A DNA stretch of 64,000 bases from Antitrichia curtipendula (lineage: Eukaryota; Streptophyta; Bryopsida; Hypnales; Leucodontaceae). The translations under genes and the position numbers were made by a program. Numbering within the stretch: the first letter of the stretch is position 1; each line of letters opens with the position of its first letter. Positions 11,836 to 36,984 of this stretch are shown here, one piece after another. The notes below the pieces were generated by a model, which was given only the letters and a program-made list of their open reading frames with translations, did not search any database and was not told the origin of the DNA. Where the stretch lies: contig OX579640.1 in assembly GCA_951230915.1 (NCBI GenBank), positions 14,714,981-14,778,980 of the forward strand, in the 5' to 3' direction.

Positions 11836-11845
11836 CCAAGCAAAG
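11836..11845. repeat. Target-site duplication, left copy (CCAAGCAAAG)
   Basis: This 10-bp sequence is repeated exactly at 37563-37572. Removing 11846-37572 rejoins an MnmE reading frame (VLHLCL-EAG), so both copies come from one MnmE exon site. A length of 9-11 bp is typical of Mutator-like transposition. Confidence 0.88.
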
Positions 11846-12240
11846 GGGGAATGCTGGTATACGAGCGTAGAGCAGCGAGCGGCGAGCGGAAAGCGGGAAT
11901 TGATGAGCGTGGAGCAACAATTTTAGAACTACAATATAATTTTTGAGAATTAATAAAATAAAAAACGGATGAAAATTTATGAAAAAGTTCAAGGTTTACT
12001 TTTTAATTTTGGATGAAAAAGTGGATGAAGAAGTTGAAGAAGAAGTGCATGAAAAAGTGGATGTAAAAGACAAACAGAAATGGATGAACAAGTGAATGAA
12101 AAAGTGGATGGAAAAGGCAAACAGAAAGTGGATGAACAAGTGGATGAAAAAATTTAGGATAAAAGTGGATGTAAAAGGCAAACAGAAAGTGGATGAATGA
12201 GTGGATGAAAAAGTGCTTATAAAATGAACCAAAAAATTCA
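11846..12240 (+). repeat. Left terminal and subterminal inverted repeat of the giant element
   Basis: The outer ~80 bp hold GAGCG-type repeats (GAGCGTAGAGC, GAGCGGCGAGCGG). Further in, 11965-12210 is a degenerate minisatellite of GATGAAAAAGTGGATG units. The same order appears, inverted, at 36985-37562. The ORFs that cross it (Ser/Thr/Phe-rich) are repeat artefacts. Confidence 0.75.
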
Positions 12241-13405
12241 ATAGCGTGACTGAGTTCAAAGAATTGGAAACAATGGCTTCATGTGGTTTGAGAAAGGAAT
12301 CTTTGGTTGCCAAAAACCTGGATGTAAATTTCTTAGGGTTTAGGGTTATAAAATGGGATGAAAGAACATGAGAGCCTTACCCCCCCCCCCCCCCCCAAAA
12401 AAAGGTATGAGAACATGGATGCCGAACTATCAAGAATGGATTAAAAAAAATGAAATAAATAGAAGATTCATGATTCAGATTTGAAACTAAAATTAGGGTT
12501 TAGGCTTTGGTGAAAGGCATGCTTTTGGGCCTACTTGACAAGAAGTAACTTCTTTTTGAACATTCAAGAGTTTAGTGGAGTTCAAGAGTTGGGTCAACAT
12601 TGGGCTCGCGGATGAAGTCACATTTCTAAGTTAGTGAGAACACAGTTTTGAACCTTTGGTGTTTATAGTCATGCTACCAGCTTCATCCGGGAGAAAGTGG
12701 GACAAACAAACCGAATTGAAGTACAATCATCATGTAGCATATATGATTGTATTGCATGAAGGAGATGGTTTGGGGATAATCTGTCAAATTGTTGCTTCAT
12801 TCATCAAATTTGAATGACTTTTATGATCCTGTACTGGACTTAGACCTTTTTTCAACCATCGTGGGATTCATGGCAGAGAACTTGTATAATGGACATATCA
12901 AGTAGTTCCATCATTGGAGGTGCATTCTCCAATGATTATGCGCTTCTACAGTATCCTACAAGACCGATTCATATGCACTAAAAGATAAAGAGAAAAGAAC
13001 ATGCATACCTAGTAAGACTGAAGCTTTGAAAAAAGAATAGTTGTATATGTTGAGGGGAAACACAGACTATGGTGACGAACCGCACGTTGCAAGGGTTAGG
13101 GTCGTTAGCAAGGCCTAATAGCCTTGCGGTTTTTAGTTAGCCTTGCAGTTTAAGCACTACAGCTACTTGTGGCCATCAAACTGGACAGGCAAGGCAGTCT
13201 GCCATGCCATGCCCAATAGAGCAGCCCAATCTGTTAGCCTAGTAGAAATGTCAGAAGAGAACTTGAGCCAAAATGGTATTATCAAGACATTTCATATAAG
13301 CAGTGTCAATGTAGATACATGTTAGTAGAGAACGCCATGTAAATTTTAAAAACTGAATGCAACAAGTGGAATTGTTCAATAGCCTATCTCAGAGTACATC
13401 ACTAG
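12241..13405. other. Element-internal stretch without a recognised gene
   Basis: This is AT-rich DNA between the left subterminal repeats and the 3' end of the ParB/methyltransferase gene. A C-homopolymer of about 16 nt lies near 12381-12396. I see no supported coding region; part may be the 3' UTR of the minus-strand gene. Confidence 0.5.
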
Positions 13406-16400
13406 TCAAAGTGCTGACATAGAACTACCCTCACTATCAGAAGTTTGCCCATCTGTCTCCACTGCCTCTTCGTCTACAAAGTGTAGAACGCGGGGATTCA
13501 CAAATTGAGCCCTAGAAGATGGCCGTGGGTCTTCTGCAACAACATTCCTACAAGAAGCCTTTGCATACGGAGGGAGCGCAAAGGATTTGGGGGGGCTCGG
13601 AAAGAAAAGTGGATGTGCAAAAAAAGGAACATTCTTGGAGGAAGTCACTTCTTGGCCTTGCCTACACAAATCAGTGAATAACATATTAAAAGACCACACA
13701 ACAAACTGAAGTAATTTGCATGAAATACAGAGCTTAGAAGACGACTTACTTACTGAATCGGAGTGTCTTCTGGACCTTCTGAATGACGACTTCATCGTCA
13801 TTCTCGTTTCCAAGGTCAGGCTCGGAGATTGCCTGCTCTGCCTCAAGAACCACAACTTTCCGAATAACGGGAGCTAGAAGGGCATCGAAGATGTCCTTAT
13901 TTTCCTCAAAAGCCAAGATATGACGACGCGTAGCACAGCAAGCTTGGATGCTGGAACCTGTACATAAAGAAAATTGAGGATCAAGTTCACATTCAATGTG
14001 TAACTATATAATGCAGTTTAAAGTACCTGAATAAATGTTAGAATCACACCTGTGGCCGCTGTACAGTCAACCACCACGTCCCCTGGTGCAGTCGCTGCTT
14101 CAACCAGCATCTGCATGAACTCACAGCCTTTTTCCTGAGGACCACGCCATGGCACGTCATTGTTCATTGTCACATCGTCTTTAAAAACCAAGTTGCGGAG
14201 GATGTCGTCCATAGCAAGGTTCACTCCCACCTTCTCTTGAGACGGGACAAATTGAAAGGGGAAGTCAGCCCTTGTCTTTGGTCCCGACTTTCTCACAAGT
14301 AGGGAGATGGAAAACCTTTGAGTCTGCATTCACAATTATGTCAATATCACGGACAACAATGCCAAATGCATTCATATGCTGTCAAGTGAATTTAAAGAGA
14401 AATACCGTTTTCTTCTGGTCAGCGGCTGATGTCAAGTGCAGATGATTAATGCCGAAATATGTCTCTAGTATGCGGAAATCGTATTCCTGGCAGTATCCGA
14501 GAATGTGGCTTCGGTGTGAAGAAGACGATGCAGGGTATATCAAGAAAAGAGCGCCATTGTCATGTAGGTACTGGTGTGCAAAGTCAAAGACAGGAACCAA
14601 ACAGTCGGATCTGAAGTCGTTCCACTTCGGCACTGGAGCAGGTGCGCATGATATGATAGGAACATGGAGTCCCTCAGGCACATCAACAATCATAAAGTCC
14701 ACAGCTGCCTCTTTTCCAATGACTCCGTTGAAGGAGCGGCTCTTGTCACACGAATGCTGCATTTCACAGAAAAGTGAAGGTAAAATTAGTGCAACACATT
14801 TATTATGAATTCTTATGAACTTCTTTTTATTCAGATAACAAAGGTAGTGTCATGTGGCTGAATTGATCTGTACTCAAAATTGATGGCCTATATTAGCAAT
14901 CCAAATATGCACAATAAAGAGGTGAAGGGATTATCATGACTAAGAAGGCCTCAACATCGTCAAAGGCCTTGGATCCCATCTCCAGACCTCCTAATGCCAT
15001 ATTCAATATGCACTCGTCGATGTCAGGCGAAGGATTCACATTCCTAGTCGACGGCGTCATCCCTTGCACCAAGCGCTCTTGAGTAAGGGAGAAGCCGGAT
15101 GACGAAATGTTGACGTCCGCTGCACTTGTAGCTGGTTCAGGCGCCTGTCGATCATCCTTCTGAAGTCGGCGTTTCTTGTTCTCCTTCTCTTGCTCTTTCT
15201 CAAATTGCCGCTTCTTCTTGTTCCCCTCGGCCTTTTTCTTGTTCTCCTCGAATTTCTTCTTAGCCTCTTCAAGCTTATCCACCTTCTTCATGTCGGAAAT
15301 CTCCCTCTTCTTGATAGCCTTGGCCTTGGCCTCTGGATCCAATCCAGCAAACTCATCGAACTCTGTGCCAGTTACCACGGAATCTTTGAGCGTTTGGAAG
15401 AGGTCCTCTTCCTCTGGTGGTGTAACGCCGAAGTTACACTCAAGATACCAAAGGCAAGTCTGCAAATGAGGACTAGTCCACTTCTGCAACTGTGTCGTCG
15501 AGAACATACAGTCGGCAGACGACCGGTCTAACCAAGTAGTGAGAAACGGGGGTAGGTCCTCTTTTTTTATGGCCTTCTTCCCGTACAACTCAAACTTGAA
15601 GTATCTGCACACAAGGAGGCTCACTTCTGTCAGTATTTAAAAATCCCTGAAACAATCAACTAGTGTAAACCATAAGGTCACTGAAAATGAATGAGCATAC
15701 TTTAGTATGACAACAACATTGCCATCCTCATTATACAGTCCCCATACAACTACTAGAATACTCCATTTTGCGTGAATCATTACAAAGAACATCACAATGG
15801 AATCAAACCGCTGACGTGAATGAGTAAGAGATTGAAACCGGTACCTGTAAACCAATCTCTTCACAGTGAGGAGCGTTCCCCTGTATAGCGTAAAGTTGTC
15901 CGATTTCTTGAAGGCATCCGGGCCCTTGAATACCCCTGTGTAGGCTTGGTCCCAAAGCTTCATCCGCCAAGTCTCTAGGTAGTCTACGATTGACTGGGGT
16001 TCATCAAGGACGGCCATGTCGAATGGTATGCTATCCGCTTGGGTGATGGTCTCAAACATCTCAGCAGCTGCCTCCTCAAGCTGTAAAATCCAATGTCAAG
16101 TCAGAGTACGTATAACAAAGAAGATCCTCATTCATAGTACAACAACTATACAAGAATAGAATCAGTTCAAAAGTAGTTTTGTTTTCTTCACACTCAATTC
16201 AAGAATAAGGTAATCGTCATACTCCAGGGTAGTAAGAAGCCTTTGCCAGAAAAATGCCCAACTTCTCTTCATTCACTGGGCGTGGTGGAAATCGACAAGT
16301 TTCTCTTGTGTGAGAGCTAGTGTTCATCCAATTCAGCCATTTGACCTTGTGTCTAGGTTCCACTGTGGCTGTCGCAATCATCTGCAGCTTTTCGAGTGTC

Positions 16401-18388
16401 AACTCCAGAACTGCATTATGACTCCAGTGTCTTTCTATTTGCTAGAGTAAAGAGGTCAATCAAAATGTAAAGAACACTGAGATTGACGAAGGAATCAAGG
16501 ACGTCCACGGAAAACAAAATTATCTCTTTAAGCCACTCTGGAATAAGGGCCGGATTTGCAACGGCTACAATCTTGGAAAGCTTCTTGTAGTGTCGGTCGG
16601 TCGAGTCTTTGATTGCCGCTCTCATTGTGGCTGCAACTGCCTCCCGGGTAACATCAACCTCTTCATTTTCTTCTTTCAGTTTTCGTATGGCAACGTCAGC
16701 TGCTGCAGAGATCTCTTGTTGGAAGATCACATTACAGACATTATTGATTAAGAGAAAGGAGTTACACGGGACTAGATGAAGCCAAAATAAATTCATTAAG
16801 ACAAATTGGAGTGGAACAATATGGCATACCTTGAAAATAAACCCAGTGAATATATGCAAAGGCATAGTATACCAGCTTGTCTGCGTGTGCATCTTACATA
16901 TCTTCACCTCTTCTTCTGTCAACAACTCTTTAAACTTCTCAAGTTCCATAACACCGTATTTCTGCACCCGGTAAAGGGTATGGACGAGGTTGGTTTTGAC
17001 GTGGGAGTTCTCCGTGTGCCTGTCAGCCATCGACATGGCGACTTTAATATATGAAATCTATCAACCAGTAAAGAAAAAAACATAAGAGAACGTCAATGTT
17101 ACAAAACCAAGGACAATTCAAGGAAATAAAACTAGAATCCCTTACATGTTGATGTCATGCATTGCCTGCATTGCAACCCCGATGCGTTGTCTAGTGTCTA
17201 GGACAATGGAGTCCACACTGATATGCCAAGCAAGATCATGGTTGTGCAGCCTCTGAATGTGGTTCATCCAAGCAATTCGTCTGTGATTCCCGTCACAGAC
17301 AAAGAACTTGTAATCCACCAAATGCTTAATAGTTGGAACTGACAAGAGGAAGGCGTTGAACTTGTCATTGACTGAGTTCCATATAGGCCCCCAATCCCGC
17401 TTCTCGTCGTCACTGAACGTGGACGTATTCCCTTTCTCATCAAAGTAAGAAACGTAAAATACTCTTGCGCCCTCGTCGTAGCCGCGTGAGAACTGGTTTT
17501 CAAGGTGAGTCAAGTCACAAGAAAGTGTTGGACGTACCATAGGCATTGGCACCAATCTACATAATGGGATCTTCATACGTGAGTGACCGTCGGTTGTAAT
17601 CTTTAGACTGTTTATGACAGTAACTGTGTCAAATGTCTGCACCCGACGAATATCTTCCTCCTTAAACCCGGGTAACACTCCTGGGATGTGATCGTCCTCT
17701 GACGTGTGTGCATCCGCGTTCAACTCAATGTCATCATCATCACTGTATATGGCCTCCACCGTCTCAGCTGGTTGGACAATCTCTCCCTGTGCGTAGTGAA
17801 GATGTCATAAATCAAATACCATGGATAAAGCCAAAAATTGAATTGCATGGACCAAGACGCGAATCGTAAACAAATCATGTGAAATGCACTCTGGATCATA
17901 AGACAAGTATGATTCATCCCAGTTCAACTATGGTATACTCAGTCCATGGTGAACTACGAAATGGAACACGGGCAAGGCAGTGTAAGGGATCTATATATCC
18001 CGCAGCACATAATGAGGACGTCATCGTCTGACATGACAGGAGAAACATCATTCTCACGCTCACAAAAGCAGTACTGAGAAGTGGACCCTGACAATGATAC
18101 GAAGAAGTTGCAACACACTGACGAGTTAATAGATGATTCCTGACTGGAACCGGAACCCTCCCATCCCAGAGGCTCATCTTCGGTGCTAAATGCATCAATC
18201 CAGAAGTGCTGGTCGCCTACCATCTCCCATGCGGCTGGAGGTGGACTTCCAATCTCGCGAGAAACTGGAATCGTGTCGGCTTCCAACATTAGCTGACCTT
18301 GCAAGTCATCAACTTCCTCTTGACTAACCACTACCGATGGTCCAGGATCGACCATGCTGTCACCTACATCTGGCACAACAACATCAAC
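13406..18388 (-). CDS. ParB/sulfiredoxin-like domain fused to N4/N6 DNA methyltransferase
   Basis: A multi-exon gene of roughly 1,200 aa. Exons I can place: 17786-17146, about 17057-16830, about 16712-16509, 16441-16223, 16080-15845, 15604-about 14933, 14756-14406, 14323-14050, 13957-13750 and 13661-13406; an acidic 5' exon starts at 18388 and ends near 18 kb. From 16830 to the stop at 13406-13408 the frame stays open and most junctions keep phase. The 17.1-17.8 kb exon holds a ParB/Srx-like region (KIPLCRLVPMP, then FFVCDGNHRRIAW). The 15.6 kb exon has a Lys/Glu-rich coiled coil and basic stretch. The last exons carry a methyltransferase in beta order: motif IV-like VDFMIVDVPEG, then DNGALFLIY, then motif I-like GDVVVDCTAATGSS and an RR..FEEN segment. 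Motifs deviate from DPPY and FxGxG, so activity is uncertain. ParB-methylase fusions are familiar from bacteria and phages; I know no described plant transposon version. The junction at 17146/17057 does not keep phase in my reading. Confidence 0.72.
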
Positions 18389-18576
18389 CTGGACAGCGAA
18401 CAGTAAGAATGATGGAAAGGGATCGGATAAGAGTAATACAACAGTGAACACTAATTACCAACACCAACCATTGACACAGCCCAAAAGGACAGGGTTGGCG
18501 GACAAGTAACCCCCTAAAACCAAATGTATATATACATTTTTCGACCACAAGCATTGGACAGTCGACTCTCTGATAC

Positions 18577-18640
18577 TGCAAGTCGGACCACACTCATCGG
18601 GCCCTCTCGGTACCGAGAGGCCTACTCGTTCGTAAGTCCG
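18577..18640 (-). promoter_or_regulatory. Candidate start and palindrome at the 5' end of the ParB/methyltransferase gene
   Basis: A perfect 18-bp palindrome, CCTCTCGGTACCGAGAGG, lies at 18603-18620. An ATG at 18597-18595 sits just downstream on the minus strand and opens a possible 7-codon exon ending before GTATCA, in phase with the exon at 18388. The palindrome is the outermost, diverged form of the motif repeated through the neighbouring array. Autoregulation by the gene product would fit, but is inference. Confidence 0.4.
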
Positions 18641-20165
18641 TCTGCAAAGAAATCAGCCATACGATGACCCTCAACCCCCTAGCATGAAAAGAGATAATAC
18701 ATAATCTGGATTCAACAACTATGCCAAATGGCAAGCTGAGGAGCCTCTCGGCCCCGAGAGTACGTGTGACAGACACGGTCACGGGTATCCTTATATACAA
18801 CGGCGGCGGCTTCAACAATCCCAAAAAAATATATAGTATCAAAAAGTAGAGTGATCCCGGAGGATTCAGTGAGCATGCCCTTGGACGAGCTGTGGTGTCT
18901 CTCGGCCCCGAGAGGGTCACGGAGAGGGTCACTAGTATGCTTAGAAGAGACGATGTCTGGGTCACGTAACCAAAAAAATATTACAACCAAAAAATAGGTC
19001 TCGTCCCATAGGATTCAGCGAGCATGCCCTGTGGCGAGCTGTGGTGTCTCTCGGCCCCGAGAGGGTGTGTTGCACGCGTAGTAAGCGCGTAAGTATCTTT
19101 AACACAAAAATGTGGTATGATGACACGAGTTATCGTCCCAGGGAATTCTAGTATGTTGCTGCAAGTTTTGGGTATCCGGATCACTTCCAAAAACACCCCA
19201 AGCAATCCGTACACTCTATTGCTATCTTCCGGAAACTAGTATTTTCCGGATTCCAATCCGGTTCCGCCCTATTCCGGATTCCGGTTCCAACTCTCTCAAG
19301 TAACTGGTTTTAGATACCCCTGTTTCACCCTCAGGGGGTCCACTATTGATCTTTCCGAGGGGCAGGGACTCGCCACTCTTGGTTCACACTCTCTATCCGT
19401 AACAAACAAAACAAAACACCCAAGAATTATACAGTAATAGCAAAGGGAGAATCCGTACCCTCACAATCTTCCAGATGACGTATCCGGAAAGTAGGTCACA
19501 CAGGGCCCGGTTAGATCTACCTTACTACAACGACAGATCCAGACTTTCCGGATTGTAGTGCTGACTTTGTATCTCTCGAGTGCTCCAGAGGTTGGCAGAC
19601 CTTCCGATGGCTGGGATAATTCCTCAGGCGGTTGCTTATCTCCGCACGGAATCCTCCCTGGACTTCCGGACTCGCACCCTCACCCGTAACAGGCTTCCAC
19701 CGGATCACCGTTCCAGCAATTTAAAGGCACCATGCACAGCTCCTCATTCACACATCTAAAGCTCTTCCGTCACAGCATATGTATCCGTCAACCCAAGAAT
19801 CCGGACTCCCTCTCACACACTCTCACTCACAAACCAGTGTATGACTCAATCATCAACGCGATACGCAAAGAGATGATCAAATTGATCTCTGGTAAGCTTC
19901 GATTAAATGACAAGAAAGGGAATGACATGCCAACAAGCCGGCCTGCCCTTAAAAGCAAACAAAAAGCGACCAAAAGGCCCACACAAAACCCGGCCAACGG
20001 CCAACTAAAAATCCGGCTAACGGTCCTAATAACCGTTCCGGCAAAACCGGAAAGCCGTTTGACAGCCTAAAAGTCCGGAACTAGGGGCCCACAGTCCGGG
20101 TTACCCGTTTCCGGAAATAACTAATAAGTCAAAATCCTAACTAAAAAGACACCCATCCGCACTAG

Positions 20166-22073
20166 TCATTTGCGGGGCTTCTTTGTCGATGGTCCGGCCC
20201 TAAGATTCGCTGGAGTGGACTTCCGGGCAGTTACCTTTGCTGGAATCCTCTTCGTTGCCGACCGAGTCCGGATTTGAGGCGGATCAGAATCCGTCCCTTC
20301 CGATTGGGAGTGAGACTCCGCAGATTCTTCTTCCGTCTCATCGATCTCCAGCGGCTCCTCGATCCTCGTGTGTCGCTGCCGTGTCGTCTTTGTCTCCGTC
20401 AAATTAATGACGGTGTTGCCCGGATTCGCTGGTGGTGGAGTGTTCTGCATATGCATAAACCTGTCCGGATCGGTCCGGGCAGGATTCCGGACACTTGCTG
20501 CTGCTATGGCCTCAGCTTCCGTCTCCGTCAGCTGGAGAGGCGGAAACAGGTTTACCGCCGCCTGTCTTCCGGCTGTCCCCTCCTGGACGGTGGTCTGTGT
20601 GCTTGCTTCCTTCGGCGTTTTAACCTCCGGATAAGTGACCACGTGAGTCGGGATTTCCGGATTCCTCTTTCCCGTTGAAGTTCCGGCTCCATGGGTTTCT
20701 TGGAACTCTCCTCCCGGAAGATCAGCGAACATTGCTTGGTCAAGCAGGTTCGGGTCGAGGCTTCCAATCAGCTGTCGCATCTCCTTCAGCACCCCCTCCA
20801 TCCGGGCCTCGAAATCCGTCAGGATGAGCACGACCTTCGTTCCGGTAATGTGGCCTTGGGCCACCATCTGTGAGTTCCAGAGTTGGGCCCTCGAGATGGT
20901 GCTGGCCGGAAGGTCGATCAGTTCTCCCAGCTTCCGTACTAGAGCCATCGCTTCCGTGGACTTCCGGTTTGCGATGTGCATCTCCCGTTCCGACCACTGG
21001 TGCTGGCTCCGGAACTGATCCCGTTCCTCCTGAAGACTCCGGGTCTGATCGTACAGAACCTTGACGTCTTCCGGATTCGGTCTTCGTGCGATGGCGGCCA
21101 AGATCTCTCTCTCGTCCTTCACTCCTAACGAATGGCAAACGTCTTGGAGTACTGCTGCCATCCGGTCGTTCACCGTCCTCGTCGTTCGCAGCCAATGTAT
21201 GGCGTTCTCGACTGGATCCACCTCCTCGTGTGGGCTTTCCGGCTGGACGGAACCTTCCGCCACTTGTTTCCCTCGCGCTGTCCGGTCGGTGGACTTCCGC
21301 CTACTGGTTCCGGCCTTCTCCGGAGTGGTCTGTGTTTCCTCCGGAACGTCCTCCTCCTCAGATTCCGGCTCCTCCGGCTGCGGTTCCGGTCTCAGCCCGT
21401 ACTTGAGGAGATTTTCCCCTTTCTTGTACATAAGCTGCTCCGGCTCGCTCAGGGTTTCCATCCGGTGGTACAAGTGGAACAAGTACGGGCTAATGTAACT
21501 GGTCTTCCGTCCTGAAATCCCATTCGCTAACTTATCCACAATCGTGTGAATAAGTCCGCCCCAATTTACGGGTCTTGGGGGCGGGTTAACCCTGTTTCCT
21601 AAAGCCCCAAAAATGGTGTTGGCCACCGTGGTGGTCACCCGGCTAGGCTTTTCCGGATACAGGATGGGGATCAGGAACTCTAAGAGTTGCTGATCCCGGG
21701 CATACACGCAATCCGTCGCTGCAAACCCCTCTTTTGGGTCGGCGGAGTTCCGGAATCTTTCTGCCGCAAACTTCTCCGTCCGGCCGGCCCATCCATGCCC
21801 CCGGTTTAGTGCAAAGTACGTTCCGGCCCAGAGCTCTTGTGTCCACGCTCTCGGGCGGCCCCTCACCGTCAACTCATACTGATTGGGAACTCCGTAAAGG
21901 AGTTCTTCAATCATTCCTTCACTCTTCAAGTCCCATGGGCGGTGTAAGAATCCGACACAGCCCATGGTCTCTAAATCCTCTTGCAACTCTCTATGGCGAT
22001 CCGTATCGAACGGAATCACCGGGCTGACAGTCCGTGCGGTCACCGCCAGTCTACGGGCTCGAGTTTCCGTCAT
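20166..22073 (-). CDS. 635-aa ORF of the nested element, Gag-like or plant mobile-element protein
   Basis: The first ATG is at 22073; an upstream non-ATG extension exists but is unlikely. The protein has an N-terminal globular part of about 230 residues rich in Trp and aromatic residues (FLHRPWDLKSEG, WAGTYFALNRGHGW), then an acidic Pro/Glu linker (EPQPEEPESEEEDVPEE), a helical region with coiled-coil character (about 290-400), and a basic Ser/Thr-rich tail ending STKKPRK. I see no zinc knuckle, protease, reverse transcriptase or integrase motif. The layout resembles retroelement Gag or the plant mobile-element domain proteins, but I cannot name the family. The frame is open throughout, which suggests a recent insertion or continuing selection. 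Confidence 0.6.
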   Translation of the reverse strand: MTETRARRLAVTARTVSPVIPFDTDRHRELQEDLETMGCVGFLHRPWDLKSEGMIEELLYGVPNQYELTVRGRPRAWTQELWAGTYFALNRGHGWAGRTEKFAAERFRNSADPKEGFAATDCVYARDQQLLEFLIPILYPEKPSRVTTTVANTIFGALGNRVNPPPRPVNWGGLIHTIVDKLANGISGRKTSYISPYLFHLYHRMETLSEPEQLMYKKGENLLKYGLRPEPQPEEPESEEEDVPEETQTTPEKAGTSRRKSTDRTARGKQVAEGSVQPESPHEEVDPVENAIHWLRTTRTVNDRMAAVLQDVCHSLGVKDEREILAAIARRPNPEDVKVLYDQTRSLQEERDQFRSQHQWSEREMHIANRKSTEAMALVRKLGELIDLPASTISRAQLWNSQMVAQGHITGTKVVLILTDFEARMEGVLKEMRQLIGSLDPNLLDQAMFADLPGGEFQETHGAGTSTGKRNPEIPTHVVTYPEVKTPKEASTQTTVQEGTAGRQAAVNLFPPLQLTETEAEAIAAASVRNPARTDPDRFMHMQNTPPPANPGNTVINLTETKTTRQRHTRIEEPLEIDETEEESAESHSQSEGTDSDPPQIRTRSATKRIPAKVTARKSTPANLRAGPSTKKPRK

Positions 22074-22208
22074 CCTGTCGGTCTTCCGGAGTTGCACCGA
22101 CCTTACTTCCGCTTCCTACCCCGATCCTATCTCACCACTCTTTCTCTCACTAAACGTACTCGCGAAAATGCCGCAGAGAAAAGAGACCGAATGAGAATGG
22201 CGGCGGGG

Positions 22209-22216
22209 TTTATATA
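22209..22216 (-). promoter_or_regulatory. TATA box of the nested element
   Basis: TATATAAA on the minus strand lies 136 bp before the ATG at 22073. Position and context (a GC-rich, pyrimidine-bearing leader after it) fit an RNA polymerase II core promoter. Confidence 0.6.
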
Positions 22217-25200
22217 GCGGCACGAAACCCTAAGTTCCCGAACCGGTGGAGTTCCCGTAAGTTCCCTAGCCGGAACCCCTACGATCCGGAACTTCCGACT
22301 ATCCGGCTACTGGTTCCGGAACACTGTTTTAACCTAATTAGAGTTTTAACTTTCCTACGAAAGAGATCTTTTCTAATGTAGGTTTCTAGTGTCTAAACTT
22401 CTATACTTATGCAAAAATTTCAAAGTTCTTCTCCTATATATTTCTATTTTATGTATTAAGTTTAGTTTCCGGACGTTCCGTAACGTTACAGGGTGTCGGA
22501 GAGGGTCACAAGTATGCTAAGGAGAGACGATGTCTGGGTCACGTAACCAAAAAAATATTATAACCGAAAAAATGTGAGTTCCCGTAGGATTCAGCGAGCA
22601 TGCCCCTGGGCGAGCTGTGGTGTCTCTCGGCCCCGAGAGGGTCACGGAGAGGGTCACCAGTATGCTAAAGAGAGTCGATGTCTGGGTCACGTAACCAAAA
22701 AAATATTACAACAAAAAAAAAGTGAAATCCCGTAGGATTCAGCGAGCATGCCCTGTGGCGAGCTATGGTGTCTCTCGGCCGCGAGAGGGTCACGGAGAGG
22801 GTCACGGGTATGCTTAGGAGCGACTATGTCTGCGTTCACAAATTCAAAAGAATATTGTAACAAGAAAAAAGTGAGTTCCCGTAGGATTCAACGAGCATGC
22901 CCTTGGGAGAGCTGTGGTGTCTCTCGGCCCCGAGAGGGTCACGGAGAGGGTCACCAGTATGCTAAAGAGAGTCGATGTCTGGGTCACGTAACCAAAAAAA
23001 TATTATAACCAAAAAAATGTGAGTTCCCGTAGGATTCAGCGAGCATACCTCTGGGCGAGCTATGGTGTCTCTCGGCCCCGAGAGGGTGTCGGAGAGGGTC
23101 ACAGGTATGCTAAGGACAGACGATGTCTAAGTCATGTAACCAAAAAAATATTATAAACAAAAAAATGTGAGTTCCCGTAGGATTCAACGAGCATGCCTTT
23201 GGGAGAGCTGTGGTGTCTCTCGGCCCCGAGAGGGTGTCGGGGAGGGTCACAGGTATGCTAAGGAGAGACGATGTCTAGGTCACGTAACCAAGAAAATATT
23301 ATAACCAAAAAAATGTGAGTTCCCGTAGGATTCAGCGAGCATGCCCTTGGGCGAGCTGTGGTGTCTCTCGGCCCCGAGAGGGTGTCGGAGAGGGTCACAG
23401 GTATGCTAAGGAGAGACGGTGGCATTGGTCACATAACCAAAAAAATATTACAACAAAAAAAATGTGAAATCCCGTAGGATTCAGCGAGCATGCCCTGTGG
23501 CGAGCTGTGGTGTCTCTCGGCCCCGAGAGGGTCACGGAGAGGGTCACGGGTATGCTTAGGAGCGACTATATCTGCGTTCACAAATTCAAAAAAATATTGT
23601 AACAAGAAAAATGTGAGTTCCCGTAGGATTCAGCGAGCATGCCCTTGGGCAAATTGTGGTGTCTCTCGGCCCCGAGAGGGTCACGGAGAGGGTCACCAGT
23701 ATGCTAAGGAGAGACGATGTCTGGGTCACGTAACCAAAAAAATATTACAACCAAAAAATAGGTCTCGTCCCATAGGATTCAGCGAGCATGCCCTGTGGCG
23801 AGCTGTGGTGTCTCTCGGCCCCGAGAGGGTGTCGGAGAAGGTCACAGGTATGCTAAGGAGAGACGATGTCTGAGTCACATAACCAAAAAAATATTATAAC
23901 CAAAAAAATGTGAATTCCCGTAGGATTCAACGAGCATGCCTTTAAGAGAGCTGTGGTGTCTTTCGGCCCCGAGAGGGTGTTGGAGAGGGTCACAGGTATG
24001 CTAAGGAGAGACGATGTCTGGGTCATGTAACCAAAAAAATATTATAACCAAAAAAATGTGAGTTCCCGTAGGATTCAACGAGCATGCCCCTGGGCGAGCT
24101 GTGGTGTCTCTTGGCCCCGAGAGGGTGTCGGAGAGGGTCACAGGTATGCTAAGGAGAGACAGTGGCATTAGTCACGTAACCAAAAGAATATTACAACAAA
24201 AAAAAAGTGAAATCCCGTAGGATTCAGCGAGCATGCCCTGTGGCGAGCTGTGGTGTCTCTCGGCCGCGAGAGGGTCACGGAGAGGGTCACGGGTATGCTT
24301 AGGAGCGACTATGTCTGCGTTCACAAATTCAAAAAAATATTGTAACAAGAAAAATGTGAGTTCCTGTAGGATTCAGTGAGCATGCCTCTGGGCGAGCTGT
24401 GGTGTCTCTCGGCCCCGAGAGGGTGTCGGAGAGGGTCACAGGTATGCTAAGGAGAGACGATGTCTAGGTCACGTAACCAAAAAAATATTATAACCAAACA
24501 AATGTGAGTTCTCGTAGGATCCAGCGAGCATGCCCTGTGGCGAGCTGTGGTGTCTCTCGGCCCCGAGAGGGTCACGGAGAGGGTCACGGGTATGCTTAGG
24601 AGCGACTATGTCTGCGTTCACAAATTCAAAAAAATATTGCAACAAGAAAAATGTGAGTTCCCGTAGGATTCAACGAGCATGCCCTTGGGAGAGCTGTGGT
24701 GTCTCTCGGCCCCGAGAGGGTCACGGAGAGGGTCATAGGTATGCTAAGGAGAGACGATGTCTGGGTCACGTAATCAAAAAAACATTACAACCAAAAAATA
24801 GGTCTCGTCCCATAGGATTCAGCGAGCATGCCCTGTGGCGAGCTGTGGTGTCTCTCGGCCCCGAGAGGGTCACGGAGAGGGTCACAGGTATGCTAAGGAG
24901 AGACAATGTCTGGGTCACGTAACCAAAAAAACATTACAGCCAAAAAATAGGTCTCCGCCCATAGGATTCAACGAGCATGCCCTGTGGCGAGCTGTGGTGT
25001 CTCTCGGCCCCGAGAGGGTGTCGGAGAGGGTCACAGGTATGCTAAGGAGAGACGATGTCTGCATCACGTAACCAAAAAAATAATATAACCAAGAAAATGT
25101 GAGTTCCCGTAGGATTCAACGAGCATGCCTTTGGGAGAGCTGTGGTGTCTCTCGGCCCCGAGAGGGTGTCGGGGAGGGTCACAGGTATGCTAAGGAGAGA

Positions 25201-28200
25201 CGATGTCTAGGTCACGTAACCAAGAAAATATTATAACCAAAAAAATGTGAGTTCCCGTAGGATTCAGCGAGCATGCCCTGGGCGAGCTATGGTGTCTCTC
25301 GGCCCCGAGAGGGTGTCGGAGAGGGTCACAGGTATGCTAAGGACAGACGATGTCTAAGTCATGTAACCAAAAAAATATTATAAACAAAAAAATGTGAGTT
25401 CCCGTAGGATTCAGCGAGCATGCCCTTGGGCGAGCTGTGGTGTCTCTCGGCCCCGAGAGGGTGTCGGAGAGGGTCACAGGTATGCTAAGGAGAGACGGTG
25501 GCATTGGTCACATAACCAAAAAAATATTACAACAAAAAAAATGTGAAATCCCGTAGGATTCAGCGAGCATGCCCTGTGGCGAGCTGTGGTGTCTCTCGGC
25601 CCCGAGAGGGTCACGGAGAGGGTCACGGGTATGCTTAGGAGCGACTATATCTGCGTTCACAAATTCAAAAAAATATTGTAACAAGAAAAATGTGAGTTCC
25701 CGTAGGATTCAGCGAGCATGCCCTTGGGCAAATTGTGGTGTCTCTCGGCCCCGAGAGGGTCACGGAGAGGGTCACCAGTATGCTAAGGGGAGACGATGTC
25801 TGGGTCACGTAACCAAAAAAATATTACAACCAAAAAATAGGTCTCGTCCCATAGGATTCAGCGAGCATGCCCTGTGGCGAGCTGTGGTGTCTCTCGGCCC
25901 CGAGAGGGTGTCGGAGAAGGTCACAGGTATGCTAAGGAGAGACGATGTCTGAGTCACATAACCAAAAAAATATTATAACCAAAAAAATGTGAATTCCCGT
26001 AGGATTCAACGAGCATGCCTTTAAGAGAGCTGTGGTGTCTTTCGGCCCCGAGAGGGTGTTGGAGAGGGTCACAGGTATGCTAAGGAGAGACGATGTCTGG
26101 GTCATGTAACCAAAAAAATATTATAACCAAAAAAATGTGAGTTCCCGTAGGATTCAACGAGCATGCCCCTGGGCGAGCTGTGGTGTCTCTCGGCCCCGAG
26201 AGGGTCACGGAGAGGGTCACGGGTATGCTTAGGAGCGACTATATCTGCGTTCACAAATTCAAAAAAATATTGTAACAAGAAAAATGTGAGTTCCCGTAGG
26301 ATTCAGCGAGCATGCCCTGTGGCGAGCTGTGGTGTCTCTCGGCCCCGAGAGGGTGTCGGAGAGGGTCACAGGTATGCTAAGGAGAGACGATGTCTGAGTC
26401 ACATAACCAAAAAAATATTATAACCAAAAAAATGTGAATTCCCGTAGGATTCAACGAGCATGCCTTTAAGAGAGCTGTAGTGTCTTTCGGCCCCGAGAGG
26501 GTGTTGGAGAGGGTCACAGGTATGCTAAGGAGAGACGATGTCTGGGTCATGTAACCAAAAAAATATTATAACCAAAAAAATGTGAGTTCCCGTAGGATTC
26601 AGTGAGCATGCCTCTGGGCGAGCTGTGGTGTCTCTCGGCCCCGAGAGGGTGTCCGAGAGGGTCACAGGTATGCTAAGGAGAGACGATGTCTAGGTCACGT
26701 AACCAAAAAAATATTATAACCAAAAAAATGTGAGTTCTCGTAGGATCCAGCGAGCATGCCCTGTGGCGAGCTGTGGTGTCTCTCGGCCCCGAGCGGGTCA
26801 CGGAGAGGGTCACGGGTATGCTTAGGAGCGACTATGTCTGCGTTCACAAATTCAAAAAAATATTGCAACAAGAAAAATGTGAGTTCCCGTAGGATTCAAC
26901 GAGCATGCCCTTGGGAGAGCTGTGGTGTCTCTCGGCCCCGAGAGGGTCACGGAGAGGGTCATAGGTATGCTAAGGAGAGACGATGTCTGGGTCACGTAAT
27001 CAAAAAAACATTACAACCAAAAAATAGGTCTCGTCCCATAGGATTCAGCGAGCATACCCTGTGGCGAGCTGTGGTGTCTCTCGGCCCCGAGAGGGTCACG
27101 GAGAGGGTCACAGGTATGCTAAGGAGAGACAATGTCTGGGTCACGTAACCAAAAAAACATTACAGCCAAAAAATAGGTCTCCGCCCATAGGATTCAACGA
27201 GCATGCCCTGTGGCGAGCTGTGGTGTCTCTCGGCCCCGAGAGGGTGTCGGAGAGGGTCACAGGTATGCTAAGGAGAGACGATGTCTGCATCACGTAACCA
27301 AAAAAATAATATAACCAAGAAAATGTGAGTTCCCGTAGGATTCAACGAGCATGCCTTTGGGAGAGCTGTGGTGTCTCTCGGCCCCGAGAGGGTGTCGGGG
27401 AGGGTCACAGGTATGCTAAGGAGAGACGATGTCTAGGTCACGTAACCAAGAAAATATTATAACCAAAAAAATGTGAGTTCCCGTAGGATTCAGCGAGCAT
27501 GCCCTTGGGCGAGCTGTGGTGTCTCTCGGCCCCGAGAGGGTGTCGGAGAGGGTCACAAGTATGTTAAGGAGAGACGATGTCTGGGTCATCTAACCAAAAA
27601 AATATTGTAACCAGAAAAATGTGAGTTCCCGTAGGATTCAGCGAGCATGCCCCTCGGCGAGCTGTGGTGTCTCTCGGCCCCGAGAGGGTGTCGGAGAGGG
27701 TCACAGGTATGCTAAGGAGAGACAGTGGCATTAGTCACGTATCCAAAAAAATATTACAACAAAAAAAAAGTGAAATCCCGTAGGATTCAGCGAGCATGCC
27801 CTGTGGCGAGCTGTGGTGTCTCTCGGCCCCGAGAGGGTCACGGAGAGGGTCACAGGTATGCTAAGGAGAGACGATGTCTGGATCACGTAACCAAAAAAAT
27901 ATTATAACCAAAAAAATGTGAGATCCCGTAGGATTCAGCGAGCATGCCCCTGGGCGAGCTGTGGTGTCTCTCGGCCCCGAGAGGGTCATGGAGAGGGTCA
28001 CCAGTATGCTAAGGAGAGTCGATGTCTGGGTCACGTAACAAAAAAACATTACAACCAAAAAATAGGTCTCGTCCCATAGAATTCAGCGAGCATGCCCCTG
28101 GGCGAGCTATGTTGTCTTTCGGCCCCGAGAGGGTGTCGGAGAGGGTCACATGTACGCTAAGGAGAGACGATGTCTGGATCATGTAACCAAAAAAATATTA

Positions 28201-30640
28201 TAACCAAAAAAATGTGAGTTCCCGTAGGATTCAGCGAGCATGCCCCTCGGCGAGCTATGGTGTCTCTCGGCCCCGAGAGGGTGTTGGAGAGGGTCACTGG
28301 TATGCTAAGGAGAGACGATGTCTGGGTCATATATCCAAAAAAATATTATAACCAAAAAAATATTATAACCAAAAAAATGTGAGTTCCCGTAGGATTCAAC
28401 GAGCATGCCCCTGGGCGCGCTGTGGTGTCTCTCGGCCCCGAGAGGGGGACGGACAGGGTCACAGGTTTGCTGAGGAAAGACGGTGGCATTGGTCACGTAA
28501 CCGAAAAAATATTACAACAAAAAAAAAGTGAATTCCCGTAGGATCCAGCGAGCATGCCCTGTGGCGAGCTGTGGTGTCTCTCGGCCCCGAGCGGGTCACG
28601 GAGAGGGTCACGGGTATGCTTAGGAGCGACTATGTCTGCGTTCACAAATTTAATAAAATATTGTAACAAGAAAAATGTGAGTTCCCATAGGATTCAGCGA
28701 GCATGCCCTTGGGCAATCTGTGGTGTCTCTCGGCCCCGAGAGGGTCACGGAGAGGGTCACAGGTATGCTAAGGAGAGACGATGTCTGGGTCACGTAACCA
28801 AAAAAATATTACAACCAAAAAATAGGTCTCGTCTCATAGGATTCAGCGAGCATGCCCTGTGGCGAGCTGTGGTGTCTCTCGGCCCCGAGAGGGTGTCGGA
28901 GAGGGTCACAGGTATGCTAAAGAGAGACGATGTCTGGGTCAGGTAACCAAAAAAATATTATAACCAAGAAAATGTGAATTCCCGTAGGATTCAGCGAGCA
29001 TGCCTTTGGGCGAGCTGTGGTGTCTCTCGGCCCCGAGAGGGTGTCGAAGAGGGTCACAGGTATGCTAAGGAGAGACGATGTCTGGGTCACCTAACCAAAA
29101 AAATATTATAACCAGAAAAATGTGAGTTCCCGTAGGATTCAGCGAGCATGCCCCTGGGCGAGCTGTGGTGTCTCTCGGCCCCGAGAGGGTCACGGAGAGG
29201 GTCACCAGTATGCTAAAGAGAGTCGATGTCTGGGTCACATAACCAAAGAAACATTACACATAAAAAATAGGTCTCGTCCCATAGAATTCAGCGAGCATGC
29301 CCTGTGGCGAGCTGTGGTGTCTCTCGGCCCCGAGAGGGTGTCGGAGAGGGTCACAGGTATGCTAAAGAGAGACGATGTCTGGGTCAGGTAACCAAAAAAA
29401 TATTATAACCAAAAAAATGTGAGTTCCCGTAGGATTCAGCGAGCATGCCTTTGGGCGAGCTGTGGTGTCTCTCGGCCCCGAGAGGGTGTCGGAGAGGGTC
29501 ACAGGTATGCTAAGGAGAGTCGATGTCTGGGTCACGTAACCAAAAAAATATTACAACCAAAAAAATGTGAGTTCCCGTAGGATTCAGCGAGCATGCCCCT
29601 GGGCGAGCTGTGGTGTCTCTCGGCCCCGAGAGGGTGTCGGAGAGGGTCACAGGTATGCTAAGGAGAGACGATGTCTGGGTCACGTAACCAAAAAAATATT
29701 GCAACCAAAAAAATGTGAGTTCCCGTAGGATTCAGCGAGCATGCCCCTGGGCGAGCTGTGGTGTCTCTCGGCCCCGAGAGGGTGTCGGAGAGGGTCACAG
29801 GTATGCTAAGGAGAGACGATGTCTGGGTCACGTAACCAAAAAAATATTATAACCAAAAAAATGTGAGTTCCCGTAGGATTCAGCGAGCATGCCCTTGGGC
29901 GAGCTATGGTGTCTCTCGGCCCCGAGAGGGTCACGAAGAGGGTCACGGGTATGCTTAGGAGCGACTATGTCTGTGTTCACAAATTCAAAAAAATATTGTA
30001 ACAAGAAAAATGTGAGTTCCCGTAGGATTCAACGAGCATGCCCGTGGGAGAGCTGTGGTGTCTCTCGGCCCCGAGAGGGTCACGGAGAGGGTCACCAGTA
30101 TGCTAAGGAGAGTCGATGTCTGGGTCACGTAACCAAAAAAACATTACAACCAAAAAATAGGTCTCGTCCCATAGGATTCAGCGAGCATGCCCTGTGGCGA
30201 GCTGTGGTGTCTCTCGGCCCCGAGAGGGTCACGGAGAGGGTCACAGGTATGCTAAGGAGAGACAATGTCTGGGTCACGTAACCAAAAAAACATTACAGCC
30301 AAAAAATAGGTCTCCGCCCATAGGATTCAACGAGCATGCCCTGTGGCGAGCTGTGGTGTCTCTCGGCCCCGAGAGGGTCACGGAGAGGGTCACAGGTATG
30401 CTAAGGAGAGACAATGTCTGGGTCACGTAACCAAAAAAACATTACAGCCAAAAAATAGGTCTCCGCCCATAGGATTCAACGAGCATGCCCTGTGGCGAGC
30501 TGTGGTGTTTCTTGGCCCCGAGAGGGTCACGGAGAGGGTCACAGGTACGCTAAGGAGAGACGATGTCTGGGTCACGTAACCAAAAAAATATTGCAACCAA
30601 GAAAAACTGAGTTCCCGTAGGATTCAGCGAGCATGCCTGG

Positions 30641-31250
30641 TGGCAATCTGGGCGAGCCGACGAGGCTTTCTGTTTCTCGGGGAGCCCTTGAAGGCATCGG
30701 TTCGGGTGGCACAGTTGAGACGCGCTTCTCATCAACCTCGGATACCCTAAACCTTAATGATTTGGCAAGATTTGATTGATTCAGCTTGAGACTTACCACC
30801 CTTGGAGCCCTCACTGGGGCGTCCGCCGCTTCTCCTCCGGCCCTGTGTCGGCACGATCTCAGCTTCGGTCCTGGATGCTCCATATCTTCCTGCCACGGGA
30901 GCAACCAAACGAGGAGTTTTAATACGATTGAGGACACCAGTACAAGCATTGGCAAAGCTGGAGAGGGTGGTTGACTATAAGGAAATGCAACATACGCTGG
31001 AGACACGGGCGGAGAAGATCTTTGATCCAAAGTTGGTGGCGCGCGGTTTAGCTTGCGGGAGAACAATACCGCCTTTGTCAGAAGCGAAATCACCGCACTG
31101 GTCTTCAGTCGCCTTGGTCCTCACTCGCGTGGTGTTAGGGGTTACAGTTTAGGGTTCGCCCAGTCCATGCCACGGGAGGAGCTCATTGTCTTGGTCCCCG
31201 TGGGAATGCTGCGTCGCATGGCCTTTCCTGGCGATCAGTAGTTTCCAAAA
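30641..31250. other. GC-rich segment after the array, possible captured gene fragment
   Basis: The array ends abruptly at about 30640 and the sequence becomes GC-rich and non-repetitive. ORFs occur on both strands: 31093-30572 on the minus strand and 30786-31241 on the plus strand. The plus-strand reading LAKLERVVDYKEMQHTLETR looks protein-like, but I do not recognise it. MULEs often carry captured host gene fragments; that origin is inferred from context only. Confidence 0.35.
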
Positions 31251-32233
31251 TCTATACATTGGGTACCTACATTAGCACTGATTACATTATATTATTTTGA
31301 CCCTCACCATTTATTTAGGATACAATTATAATTTCGAATGATAGCTGTTGTGTTATCCACGTCTATGTCAACCATCAGCGATCACTGAGTTCCATGTACT
31401 CCCCTGTTGTGATGTCATTTGGTTTGACGAATTGGCATTTGTATTCTCTCAGACGTGCTCTTACTGAGTCTTATAAGAGAGTCATAAGCATTGTTTCCAC
31501 AACCATTCACATCCTTCAGTTCCTAGTTCCAGCCTATCATATGAATAGCGTAAATTTCGCATTAATATAATGTGTATTCCTTGCAATTGCTTATCCCGGC
31601 GTCAGAGGATGCTAATTTAATGTAGTCGTTCAGCGTTTTCCGTTTGGCCTATACCGTAGATTTTTATTTATGACGGATAACAATTACTGATTGACAGTGA
31701 CAATATACCGGTAATTGTCAGTGAAATTGGGCCTGCGGCATTAAGGATCGTATTGTGTCATTATTCCGTCTTTATGGTCATTCGTAACTACTTGGAGTAT
31801 CAAGGGACTATACCCACTGAAGTGCATTACTCCAAAGGGTTAATTATATATTCATTCTTGTATTATAAAACATTTTAGTTTTTATCACATTCAATGCGTT
31901 GTCACAGTATCCCTGCAAAATATCTTTTGAATGTTATTGGTACCTTCCAATAGTAATACTAATTACTTTAATTAGAGTTACTATTGGTTTGTAACCTGTT
32001 TAATAGAGTTCATTGCCGTCGTTTCATTGTTAATGTTCTAGGATATGAACCAGCTAACACGCAGAGTTCAGAATGAATTTATTACCCTGGGTGGTTTCCA
32101 GTTTGATTGTTCTATATTAGAGGCGGATTCAATGTTGGAGTTCATTGAAAGTCCTATGTTTTGAAGGTCTGTTTCTGTGATATGTGGTACATTTCAGTGA
32201 TATGCATTGTTGTGCTTTGTGAATGCATTCTCA
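31251..32233. other. AT-rich leader of the transposase gene
   Basis: No long ORF is present. A 43-codon ORF beginning at ATG 32045 (MNQLTRRVQNEFITLGGF) could be a first exon spliced to the main ORF, but I cannot fix a junction. Several TATAA-like motifs occur, none decisive. Confidence 0.4.
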
Positions 32234-35200: not shown

Positions 35201-36028
35201 ACTTCAGCAAAGGCATGCTTTGCCTTGCAGGCAATAACGAGGAAAAAATGTGTCGCAAAGATTGTGCAAGGCAACAAAGGAACCGCTGCTCCAACTTACA
35301 CAAGGGATATGGATTGTTATCAAAAGAAAAGAATTGAGAGAACACAGTTTTTTTTCTGCAACGACGACATTGAGCGCTGCGTCAAAGGTACAAAGAGGAA
35401 GTGGGTTATGTCCAAATCCGATGTGCCTTGTATTTGGCCAGTCCTGAAGGGAACAAATCTGACGAGTACAGAAATAATGCAGCTTCAGAATGCTGGATTT
35501 CGTCTACCTGAACGTCTTGAAATCTCCCCATGCCGGCTTTTTGGTGAAAACACTTTACCGGCCGACTTATTAGATATCATTGTCCCAGATTTTCCAGCAC
35601 AACATCCAAGCACTAGATGTGGACGGAAAATTCGAAGGAACCCAGCTGCTCCAACCACTAAACAAGCGAACAATTGCGGTTCTGCTCTTACCTTGACGGC
35701 TAATGTTCGACAAATAACGATGATTCCACATCCGGGGTTTGGATGTATTGTTACAATTGACTCCGGTCTTCAGCCTGACATTCAACAATACATATTGACC
35801 ATAGGTTCATATCCAGAATGTTCATGTCCTTATTTCAAGGAGATGTCGACTAAGGCATTGGGGAAGAGAGGACAATGGGCCAATTGTAAGCATCTATATG
35901 TCCTCTTCATTGTTATCTGTCGCTTTAATGCAGAAGTAGATGCTTTCATTCATGCTCCAAGCTTAAGCTTCAATGAGATCAGACACATTCTAGAGAGCGG
36001 CATCTTGCATTGCACTAGCAGTATGTAG
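32234..36028 (+). pseudogene. MULE-type transposase with SWIM zinc finger, one in-frame TAG
   Basis: Exon A is 32234-34333, the intron 34334-34564 (GTAAGT...GTAG, phase 0), exon B 34565-36028; about 1,187 codons. The N-terminal ~190 residues are low-complexity with an acidic VISIDSDDSDE run. Around 33060-33330 a Cys/His-rich segment (RCGNGDC, CKIC, ACVHLGVHDH) resembles the WRKY-GCM1-type fingers of MULE transposases. DDE candidates are Asp520 (WIMFDHV), Asp586 (FMADYAQANW) and Glu717 (CNLAETVHNKW), with CLFHWTQSMEKH between the last two, a spacing that fits MULEs. The SWIM finger is CSC at 35819-35827 and CKH at 35885-35893 (C-x-C-x19-C-x-H). A TAG at 34775-34777 interrupts exon B, and the same frame stays open after it. 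It is otherwise intact, so inactivation may be recent, or the stop might be bypassed. It is the likely mobiliser of the whole element. Confidence 0.78.
34334..34564 (+). other. Intron of the transposase gene
   Basis: The donor is GTAAGT after codon ATT and the acceptor is GTCCGTAG. Splicing joins FMHI to DLPAHELAEM in frame. Reading through instead reaches a stop at 34385-34387, so the ORF ends there without splicing. Confidence 0.75.
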
Positions 36029-36984
36029 GTGGTAGTTCATGAGAGGATGAATGTTATTAGGGAAGCAGTGAAACCAAAGTTTATTTTGGTACTTGAATTG
36101 GTTTCTAGTAAGTGTAGTGAGACGAAAAGGGCCACTACCCCATTGCGGTTTGAATTGGTTGGGACCATGACTTGTCATGCTATTATTCCAATGCACACCT
36201 TATTTCTTGGACCTCTGGATGATTCTGATGATTTTGTTAATGCCACATACCTGAATTTAATGTTTCAAAGTGCTGCAAATAGTACATCATTGTTATTGCA
36301 TGGATCCCCTACATCAAATTGGGGATATGTCCCTTCTAAAAAATACTTATAAATCTTTCATAAATTCAATATTTTGGGCACAGACCACCCTAAACCCTAC
36401 CCTCACTATATGCATGCAAAGACTCTTGTAGGACTCCTATCAGCATCCTAAACCACCGTTAGAGGTCCCTACGTAAGGATTCGGCCACCCCAATAAATTT
36501 ATATGCGCCTAAATAATTTATGAATCATCATTGGTCCTTTTGAATCCTACAGCCTTTTTTCCAGCATTCTGGAACACTCAATTTCTATATATTCATATCC
36601 TTGATGTAGATCTAATACAGATGAGAAATTGAACACCAAAATTGTCACTGATGCAATTTTACGTCCATGGTTATAGGTTCATGGTCGTCACTCTATTCTT
36701 GCCGGACCTAGGTGAAATGTGCCATGATACATTCTTGCTCTTAGCTCCCAAGCTATAAGTTTCCAAGTTCCTAAATTCACATATGCACATATTGTTACAG
36801 GTTCACAGTTTGTAGTTTCATGTACATACACAGTGAAGCTAAACACGATTTAAGAGCCACAAAATTATTGCAAAGGCAAGCCCAACGCATTTGTGATTAA
36901 TGGGTTCCCTAAACAATGAACCATCTAAATAGTCAATGTGAACTAAGTCTTCTTCCGAATGCTTTAGATTTTTCTAAGAGGCAA
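36029..36984. other. 3' flank of the transposase gene
   Basis: The frame after the transposase stop stays open for another 107 codons (to 36352) but shows no domain I recognise. The rest is AT-rich without a supported gene. Confidence 0.45.

Follow-up and report, generated by a model that had tools for sequence, protein, structure and literature searches.

In a 64,000-nucleotide stretch of the genome of the moss Antitrichia curtipendula (positions 14,714,981 to 14,778,980 of contig OX579640.1, GenBank assembly GCA_951230915.1; the whole stretch is hereafter called the window), a ParB/sulfiredoxin (Srx)-fold domain and a beta-class amino-methyltransferase (MTase) domain were confirmed to be joined in a single minus-strand gene, here referred to as the ParB-MTase gene. 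We put at about even the chances that it is an accessory gene of a large, probably Mutator-like, moss DNA transposon and encodes an own-element recognition protein provided with a binding array. The union of a ParB/Srx domain and an N4/N6 methyltransferase in one gene had been claimed in an initial annotation of the window, and it is borne out by fold matches, MTase profiles and the exons of relatives. The gene is intron-rich and runs from about 18388 to 13645, with 11 modelled exons and 1,102 codons; the interval 13406..18600 assigned to it earlier encloses it, with a left limit set too far out, as the modelled stop lies at 13645. The exons are as follows.

18058..18388, minus strand: exon 1, acidic N-terminal part, as modelled
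17146..17782, minus strand: exon 2, ParB/sulfiredoxin-fold domain with the CDGNHRR box
16830..17019, minus strand: exon 3, from the gene model and copies of the element
16524..16712, minus strand: exon 4, splice sites of the next intron altered in the window copy
16223..16438, minus strand: exon 5, border set from other copies
15845..16080, minus strand: exon 6, from the gene model and copies of the element
14941..15604, minus strand: exon 7, containing a lysine-rich stretch, from the gene model
14406..14756, minus strand: exon 8, MTase motif IV region, DVPEG where DPPY is expected
14050..14323, minus strand: exon 9, MTase motifs X and I, CTAATG replacing FxGxG, last codon split by the intron
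13754..13957, minus strand: exon 10, remainder of the lobe with the S-adenosylmethionine site
13645..13661, minus strand: exon 11, modelled end and stop, from the gene model alone

Homologues with conserved exons, on which the initial annotation had made its reading depend, are present, as both the exon-2 donor and the borders of exons 8 to 10 are kept. The modelled donor of exon 2 coincides with the end of the homologues, 83 of the 120 listed stopping exactly at INK and 88 of 120 one residue past the IN of HDIN. Exons 8, 9 and 10 were present in all 20 other genomic copies fetched, with the splice dinucleotides AG and GT of exon 8 in 19 copies each, AG of exon 9 in 19, and AG and GT of exon 10 in 18 and 17, respectively. 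The exon 4/5 border (16524/16438) was set from relatives, leaving the length the same as in the first model, and both splice sites of intron 4 in the window copy deviate from those of all seven other aligned copies; the Pfam, PHROG and protein searches preceded this correction and, where they spanned the border, used a few incorrect residues. Together with a stop in the transposase (see below), the altered intron-4 splice sites mark the window copy as damaged, and it is probably non-functional, while other copies without stops in the searched exons exist, as checked at the level of exons. The N-terminus of the ParB-MTase protein is provisional because the open reading frame (ORF) of exon 1 looks coding to its own stop at 17954-17956: it is present in all 15 clade-1 and all 14 clade-2 copies (compared below), and its tail block has a nonsynonymous divergence (dN) of 0.15 at a synonymous divergence (dS) of 1.79 (110 pairs; 21 of 29 loci with exact CGIYRSL). 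This minus-strand ORF (17954-18388) includes exon 1 and stays conserved as far as its stop (MSDDD...CCGIYRSL..PCPCS.S); dS greatly exceeds dN in it, and it may encode a third small element protein or a short isoform made via intron retention. Upstream of exon 1, an AT-rich palindrome, AAATGTATATATACATTT at 18520-18545, is kept in 10 of the 15 clade-1 copies and is perhaps a TATA element or a second site.

The CDGNHRR box had been read as part of a ParB/Srx fold, and structural comparison agrees, in that the exon-2 domain showed this fold with ParB/Noc proteins as its best matches; the single-sequence fold prediction of exon 2, with a predicted local distance difference test (pLDDT) score of 31, was of no use. 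With exon 2 as the query, 315 proteins were found at E<=1 among 378 candidates, the closest being 71% identical across 87% of the query, and an alignment of the window with 33 of the 120 listed homologues revealed invariant residues near PxCR, F..DGNH, WH and D. The ParB part had no significant hidden Markov model (HMM) match (PHROG_1033 at E 0.28; none in Pfam), and ParB_N (PF02195) gave no match in the Pfam scans nor in a profile search of the moss's own genome. The HMM check suggested earlier for the spliced protein was thus positive for N6_N4_Mtase (PF01555, see below) and negative for ParB_N. Weak matches to DndB were also seen (NCBIfam, E 0.046 over 98 residues; E 0.094 in one of 93 members). 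The full-length spliced protein retrieved nothing from the protein database at E<=0.001 among 7,990 scored candidates; it was the exon-sized queries that gave matches. Pattern searches of IMG/VR and GTDB contigs gave 130 and 15 matches, respectively, none of which was confirmed as a relative. Among the structural matches of the ParB model in BFVD, the first and third belong to Cafeteria roenbergensis virus and Faunusvirus and are uncharacterised, so going by this model giant viruses may hold relatives of the moss domain; two methylase-named proteins stand among the 50 BFVD matches listed.

The C-terminal exons do follow the beta-class MTase order, as first annotated. The spliced C-terminal domain matches PF01555 at E 1.2e-5 (25.8 bits, just below the curated cut-off of 26.7) and the DNA methyltransferase family PHROG_3008 at E 9.1e-10, and these matches span exon borders, which supports the splicing model. 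Profiles and an alignment with three phage MTases gave the motif order IV ... X-I of the beta class. Pfam and PDB profiles did not identify exon 8 by itself as an MTase (14 rows, with P0134 and P0135 left out), and for this reason its assignment rests on the spliced domain, the motif order and the phage alignment. When exon 8 was queried together with part of exon 9, 15 of 32 candidate proteins scored E<=1; for three pairs of exon-2 and exon-8 homologues, the longest contig was equally long in both searches (4,168, 51,571 and 331,364 bases), suggesting, short of proof, that the two homologues of each pair share a contig.

The catalytic residues of this domain have been remodelled. At the DPPY position all 20 genomic copies read D[VI][PL]E[GD], and the 14 of 15 database homologues that cover the site read DVPEG (12), DMPEG (1) or DVLEG (1); the catalytic (D/N/S)PP(Y/F/W) is found in none of these 20 copies and 14 homologues. 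DVPEG aligns on DPPY or DLPY of three Staphylococcus phage amino-MTases, and the moss family differs in this from the phage enzymes, all three of which have D[PL]PY. Motif I generally reads CTAAT(G); of the 19 readable copies, two retain the first G of FxGxG and none the F. The ratio of dN to dS (omega) for the MTase exons was 0.13-0.18 between the window and copies L037-L044 and 0.11 for L046 at a dS of 2.5; against the near copies L034-L036 it was 0.29-0.99, and L045 and L047-L053 were saturated. As the domain with the changed motif is under purifying selection, the change in motif IV is not the decay of a single copy. Because the catalytic tetrad is missing from all copies and homologues read, we do not class the protein as an active methylase; judged by its residues, ordinary DNA methylase activity is unlikely, and an altered methyltransferase activity is possible. 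An active N6-adenine or N4-cytosine DNA methylase, guided by the ParB domain to its own element, has been proposed for the Ectocarpus protein among the algal proteins (PMC12477816). Such an enzyme would accord with an MTase fold under purifying selection and with the two copies that keep the first G of motif I, but the replacement of DPPY throughout, the loss of that G in 17 of 19 readable copies and of the F in all 19 make it an improbable explanation for the moss.

The gene is carried by an element bounded by terminal inverted repeats (TIRs) and a target-site duplication (TSD), with the following parts.

11846..37562: whole transposon, ~25.7 kb, from the TIR alignment and TSD
11836..11845: left TSD, CCAAGCAAAG, with the 11th letter matching too
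37563..37572: right TSD, CCAAGCAAAG, a direct repeat outside the TIR
11846..11950, plus strand: left TIR, imperfect, starting GGGGAATGCTGGTATACGAGCG, from the TIR alignment
37460..37562, minus strand: right TIR, inward CAACGAAGCTAGTATACGAGCG, outermost bases unlike the left end
12010..12215, plus strand: subterminal GGATGAAAAAG-type tandem repeats inside the left TIR
32213..34333, plus strand: transposase exon 1, 707 amino acids, like that of Mutator-like elements (MULEs), CxxH motif
34565..36028, plus strand: transposase exon 2, SWIM-like CxC...CxH near its end

The 11-mer formed by the TSD and its next letter is unique to these two places in the window, and random segment pairs shared any 11-mer in 346 of 200,000 cases. 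Of the nine copies examined, the window included, seven have both ends with a flanking repeat of 9-12 letters; among the eight further copies of the same subfamily, six have both ends, while in one the left end, and in another neither end, was found at the predicted place. The TSD is 10 bp long and the duplicated sequence differs at each insertion site, which shows mobility. A MULE had been named as the carrier, and the imperfect TIRs and 10-bp TSDs agree with this, the published range for MULE TSDs being 8-11 bp (PMC6446971), although the element at 11846-37562 is much larger than the interval first described and its transposase had no transposase match in Pfam (SWIM at just E 2.4; CxxH and CxC...CxH were seen by eye). 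For want of such a match, we regard the carrier as probably, short of proven, a Mutator-like DNA transposon. In the window copy, an in-frame TAG at 34775-34777 interrupts transposase exon 2. Further GGATGAAAAAG-type repeats at ~37000-37450, inside the right TIR, mirror the left set by eye, and these subterminal repeats are possible transposase sites.

Searches of the moss's own genome (400,189,583 bases in 303 contigs) yielded at least 150 exon-2 matches (150 scored of 1,249 candidates), at least 150 exon-8 matches (150 scored of 1,098) and 65 listed rows for the transposase (63 scored of 1,818); many other copies carry stops. A ParB exon stands head-to-head with the transposase within 40 kb at 49 of the 63 transposase places (3.1 to 33.3 kb), the chance of a random place being equally near a ParB exon being ~0.03; the other 14 have no such exon among the 150 scored, and the other orientation was never seen (0/63). 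When the first 50 exon-2 rows were compared with the first 50 exon-8 rows, 46 had an exon 8 downstream in the same orientation and four had none within 20 kb. For exon 2, the 15 copies of clade 1 set against the 14 of clade 2 gave median values of 0.149 for dN, 0.98 for dS and 0.15 for omega over 210 pairs, while the median omega was 0.65 within clade 1 (105 pairs) and 0.23 within clade 2 (91 pairs). The ParB-MTase gene is under purifying selection between element lineages (omega ~0.15).

The spacer that separates the ParB-MTase gene from the transposase is a tandem array, split by an insertion.

18604..18619: outermost palindrome, CTCTCGGTACCGAGAG, upstream of the ParB-MTase gene
18708..19123, plus strand: tandem array units of the 148-bp type on the gene side of the insertion
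20166..22115, minus strand: gag-like ORF of 649 amino acids in the insertion splitting the 148-bp array
22490..30644, plus strand: main 148-bp tandem array, 54.8 units

The element holds 48 exact copies of TCTCGGnnCCGAGA, all between 18500 and 30700; CTCTCGGCCCCGAGAG occurs exactly 47 times and CTCTCGGTACCGAGAG once, nearest the gene, every one within the element, and 58 palindrome sites were counted in the window at up to four mismatches. TCTCGGnnCCGAGA was absent from the window outside the element (38,304 bases), from 20 exon 8-10 loci (23,387 bases) and from 16 element-end loci (12,516 bases). Genome-wide, 1,775 sites were found versus four for a reversed control; among the first 50 on the list, 35 are situated no more than 6 kb upstream of a scored ParB exon, another eight are within 21 kb, and seven are near no such exon. 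The array units upstream of the gene measure 148 bp in clade 1, 159 bp in L019 and 224 bp in clade 2, and 181, 245-267, 254-256, 349, 380, 441 and 159 bp in more diverged lineages, yet all the array groups examined have TCTCGGnnCCGAGA sites or close variants upstream of the gene. An exact TCTCGGnnCCGAGA occurs in each of the 29 loci L005-L033; of the 20 diverged upstream loci, 16 have one, and the other four, L056 and L071-L073, carry variants with one or two changes. In the most diverged of these, L071, L072 and L073, the site reads TCTCGGTGGCGAGA or TCTCGTCGGCGAGA instead, which may reflect co-evolution of protein and site.

An unbiased scan of all inverted repeats of the form 6+gap(0-6)+6 in nine array groups identified TCTCGGnnCCGAGA as the most widely shared, in seven of nine groups, the overlapping variant CTCTCG(n4)CGAGAG being present in six and the two together in all nine; each of the inverted repeats unrelated to TCTCGGnnCCGAGA among the top 10 listed was confined to one group. 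Moreover, 57 of 58 short array matches across groups overlap the palindrome in both partners. Within 40 bp the flanks are slightly more alike than random windows (3.51 vs 3.22 of 7), part of this likeness being due to the mirror half-sites included, and since the windows were chosen by the core, the core columns are not independent evidence. These half-sites were seen in 6 of 10 group consensuses, with GCAT starting at -34 or -33 and ATGC ending at +33 or +32, and symmetric complementarity is raised both in the core and at offsets 29-33 (0.60-0.78), other offsets from 8 outward giving 0.06-0.46. Within the 148-bp array alone, conservation of the palindrome is weak evidence, as 6 of 133 windows score higher, and it is therefore the cross-lineage comparison that carries weight. 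As for the insertion, the 649-amino-acid ORF at 20166-22115 had no Pfam match and is gag-like by eye.

We consider it rather likely that the ParB-MTase protein binds the palindrome array, because ParB proteins bind DNA as dimers and the array contains dyads, the palindrome persists although the sequence around it turns over, and the gene accompanies the array. The protein combines the ParB-type domain, a helical-looking middle and the C-terminal MTase-derived domain with its remodelled tetrad, and we propose that a dimer recognises TCTCGGnnCCGAGA, in some lineages together with the mirror GCAT/ATGC half-sites ~33 bp out. Loading of the array might then set the chromatin or transcription state of the element itself, most likely so as to counter silencing by the host, as VANC does for VANDAL elements, with the MTase-derived lobe contributing to binding or to a changed kind of modification. 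Taken as a whole, a eukaryotic, transposon-borne ParB/parS-like address system is conceivable at somewhat less than even chances, in which a protein with a repurposed MTase lobe, non-methylating or chemically altered, sits as a dimer on a compound dyad of TCTCGGnnCCGAGA and GCAT/ATGC half-sites lying some three helical turns away, selection preserves this dyad while the units turn over, and the epigenetic state or mobility of the many element copies in the moss is controlled. A VANC-like outcome, that is, loss of DNA methylation on the own element, is a tentative guess by analogy, to which we would give about one chance in three.

Alternatively, the array may serve the transposase, as an internal enhancer or a site for the transposition complex, or be a mere satellite, with the ParB-MTase protein acting otherwise, for instance as an NTP-regulated nickase that aids transposition. 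The array adjoins the transposase gene too, and the bacterial ParB-methylase Bce_0392 was reported to nick DNA via its ParB domain (PMC5512222); nevertheless, none of the 16 element-end loci, the expected binding places of a transposase, has the palindrome, and a pure satellite is not expected to retain a 12-base dyad while the remaining unit is replaced, so we find this reading doubtful. A plasmid-like role in partition or maintenance, in which a ParB-like protein and a parS-like array cluster or position element copies or excised circles, would draw on the ParB/Noc fold matches and on the palindromic form of parS-like sites, which the moss palindrome resembles, but it is very unlikely for a chromosomal element with TSDs in whose ORF listings no ParA-like ATPase was noticed by eye, no profile search having been made. 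The gene being a functionless captured fragment, a Pack-MULE-like passenger, is disfavoured and hardly credible, since the damage to the window copy, the stops in many others and the higher omega within clade 1 are set against an omega of ~0.15 between clades at dS near 1, kept exon borders and kept linkage with transposase and array.

The preferred reading, an own-element recognition protein, has counterparts in known systems. In the brown alga Ectocarpus, the transposon Sola1-1_Ec32 carries a ParB plus N4/N6-MTase gene of 1,104 amino acids, and such proteins have been proposed to bind and epigenetically modify their own transposon (PMC12477816); the same article cites Iyer 2011 and Petroll 2025 for similar transposon proteins in green and red algae. 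The moss gene shares with these a ParB/Srx fold N-terminal to an amino-MTase and a position opposite the transposase in a mobile element, and with Sola1-1_Ec32 also nearly the same length (1,102 amino acids) and an element of more than 20 kb, whereas the algal carrier belongs to Sola-1 and the moss one has TIRs and a 10-bp TSD; the two were compared by description only. In Arabidopsis, the VANC proteins of VANDAL elements bind a short motif that recurs in the tandem repeats of the element encoding them, and cause DNA methylation to be lost (PMC5735166). The likeness lies in an accessory protein of a MULE (for the moss, a probable one), in short tandem-repeat motifs of the own element (for the moss, putative targets) and in units that turn over; in contrast, the VANC motif is the 9-mer YAGTATTAY and not a long dyad, and the available text of PMC5735166 mentions no ParB or MTase domain for VANC. 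Bacterial ParB-methylases such as Bce_0392 likewise have ParB fused to an amino-methyltransferase (PMC5512222). Bacterial ParB-parS is similar in its ParB/CTPase fold and inverted-repeat sites, and differs from the moss system, which has many tandem sites and in which neither a ParA (looked for by eye) nor a parS-type helix-turn-helix was identified.

The interpretation in the initial annotation is borne out in part. It took a spliced version carried by a MULE to be undescribed; ParB-MTases of algal transposons are already in print (PMC12477816). Among the hits listed in searches of the open-licence literature, none reported the palindrome site, the remodelled motif or a land-plant occurrence. 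New here are the moss host, the apparently Mutator-like carrier, the conserved exons and selection, the remodelled motif and the palindrome array. Elsewhere in the window, a chalcone synthase gene at 3940-4968 on the plus strand is ~94% identical, counted on the printed alignment, to PDB 6dx7, which we take to be Physcomitrella chalcone synthase, and so marks the host as a land plant, probably a moss; the ORF at 61931-62512 on the plus strand is presumably the start of a gene for the PP2A scaffold (A) subunit.

With these results, a land plant joins the algae whose transposons have been reported to carry a prokaryotic-looking ParB-methyltransferase, and the available algal description is supplemented by a specific candidate for the binding site and by a site-protein pair that can be tested. 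They also offer a direct test of a role for N6-methyladenine (6mA) or N4-methylcytosine (4mC) on plant transposons. Should the binding prove true, this would be a second example, unrelated to VANC, of a plant transposon addressing its own copies via tandem motifs. It would also show an amino-methyltransferase fold that selection has maintained despite a changed catalytic motif. The probable protein-palindrome pair suggests how such elements may mark and control their own copies.

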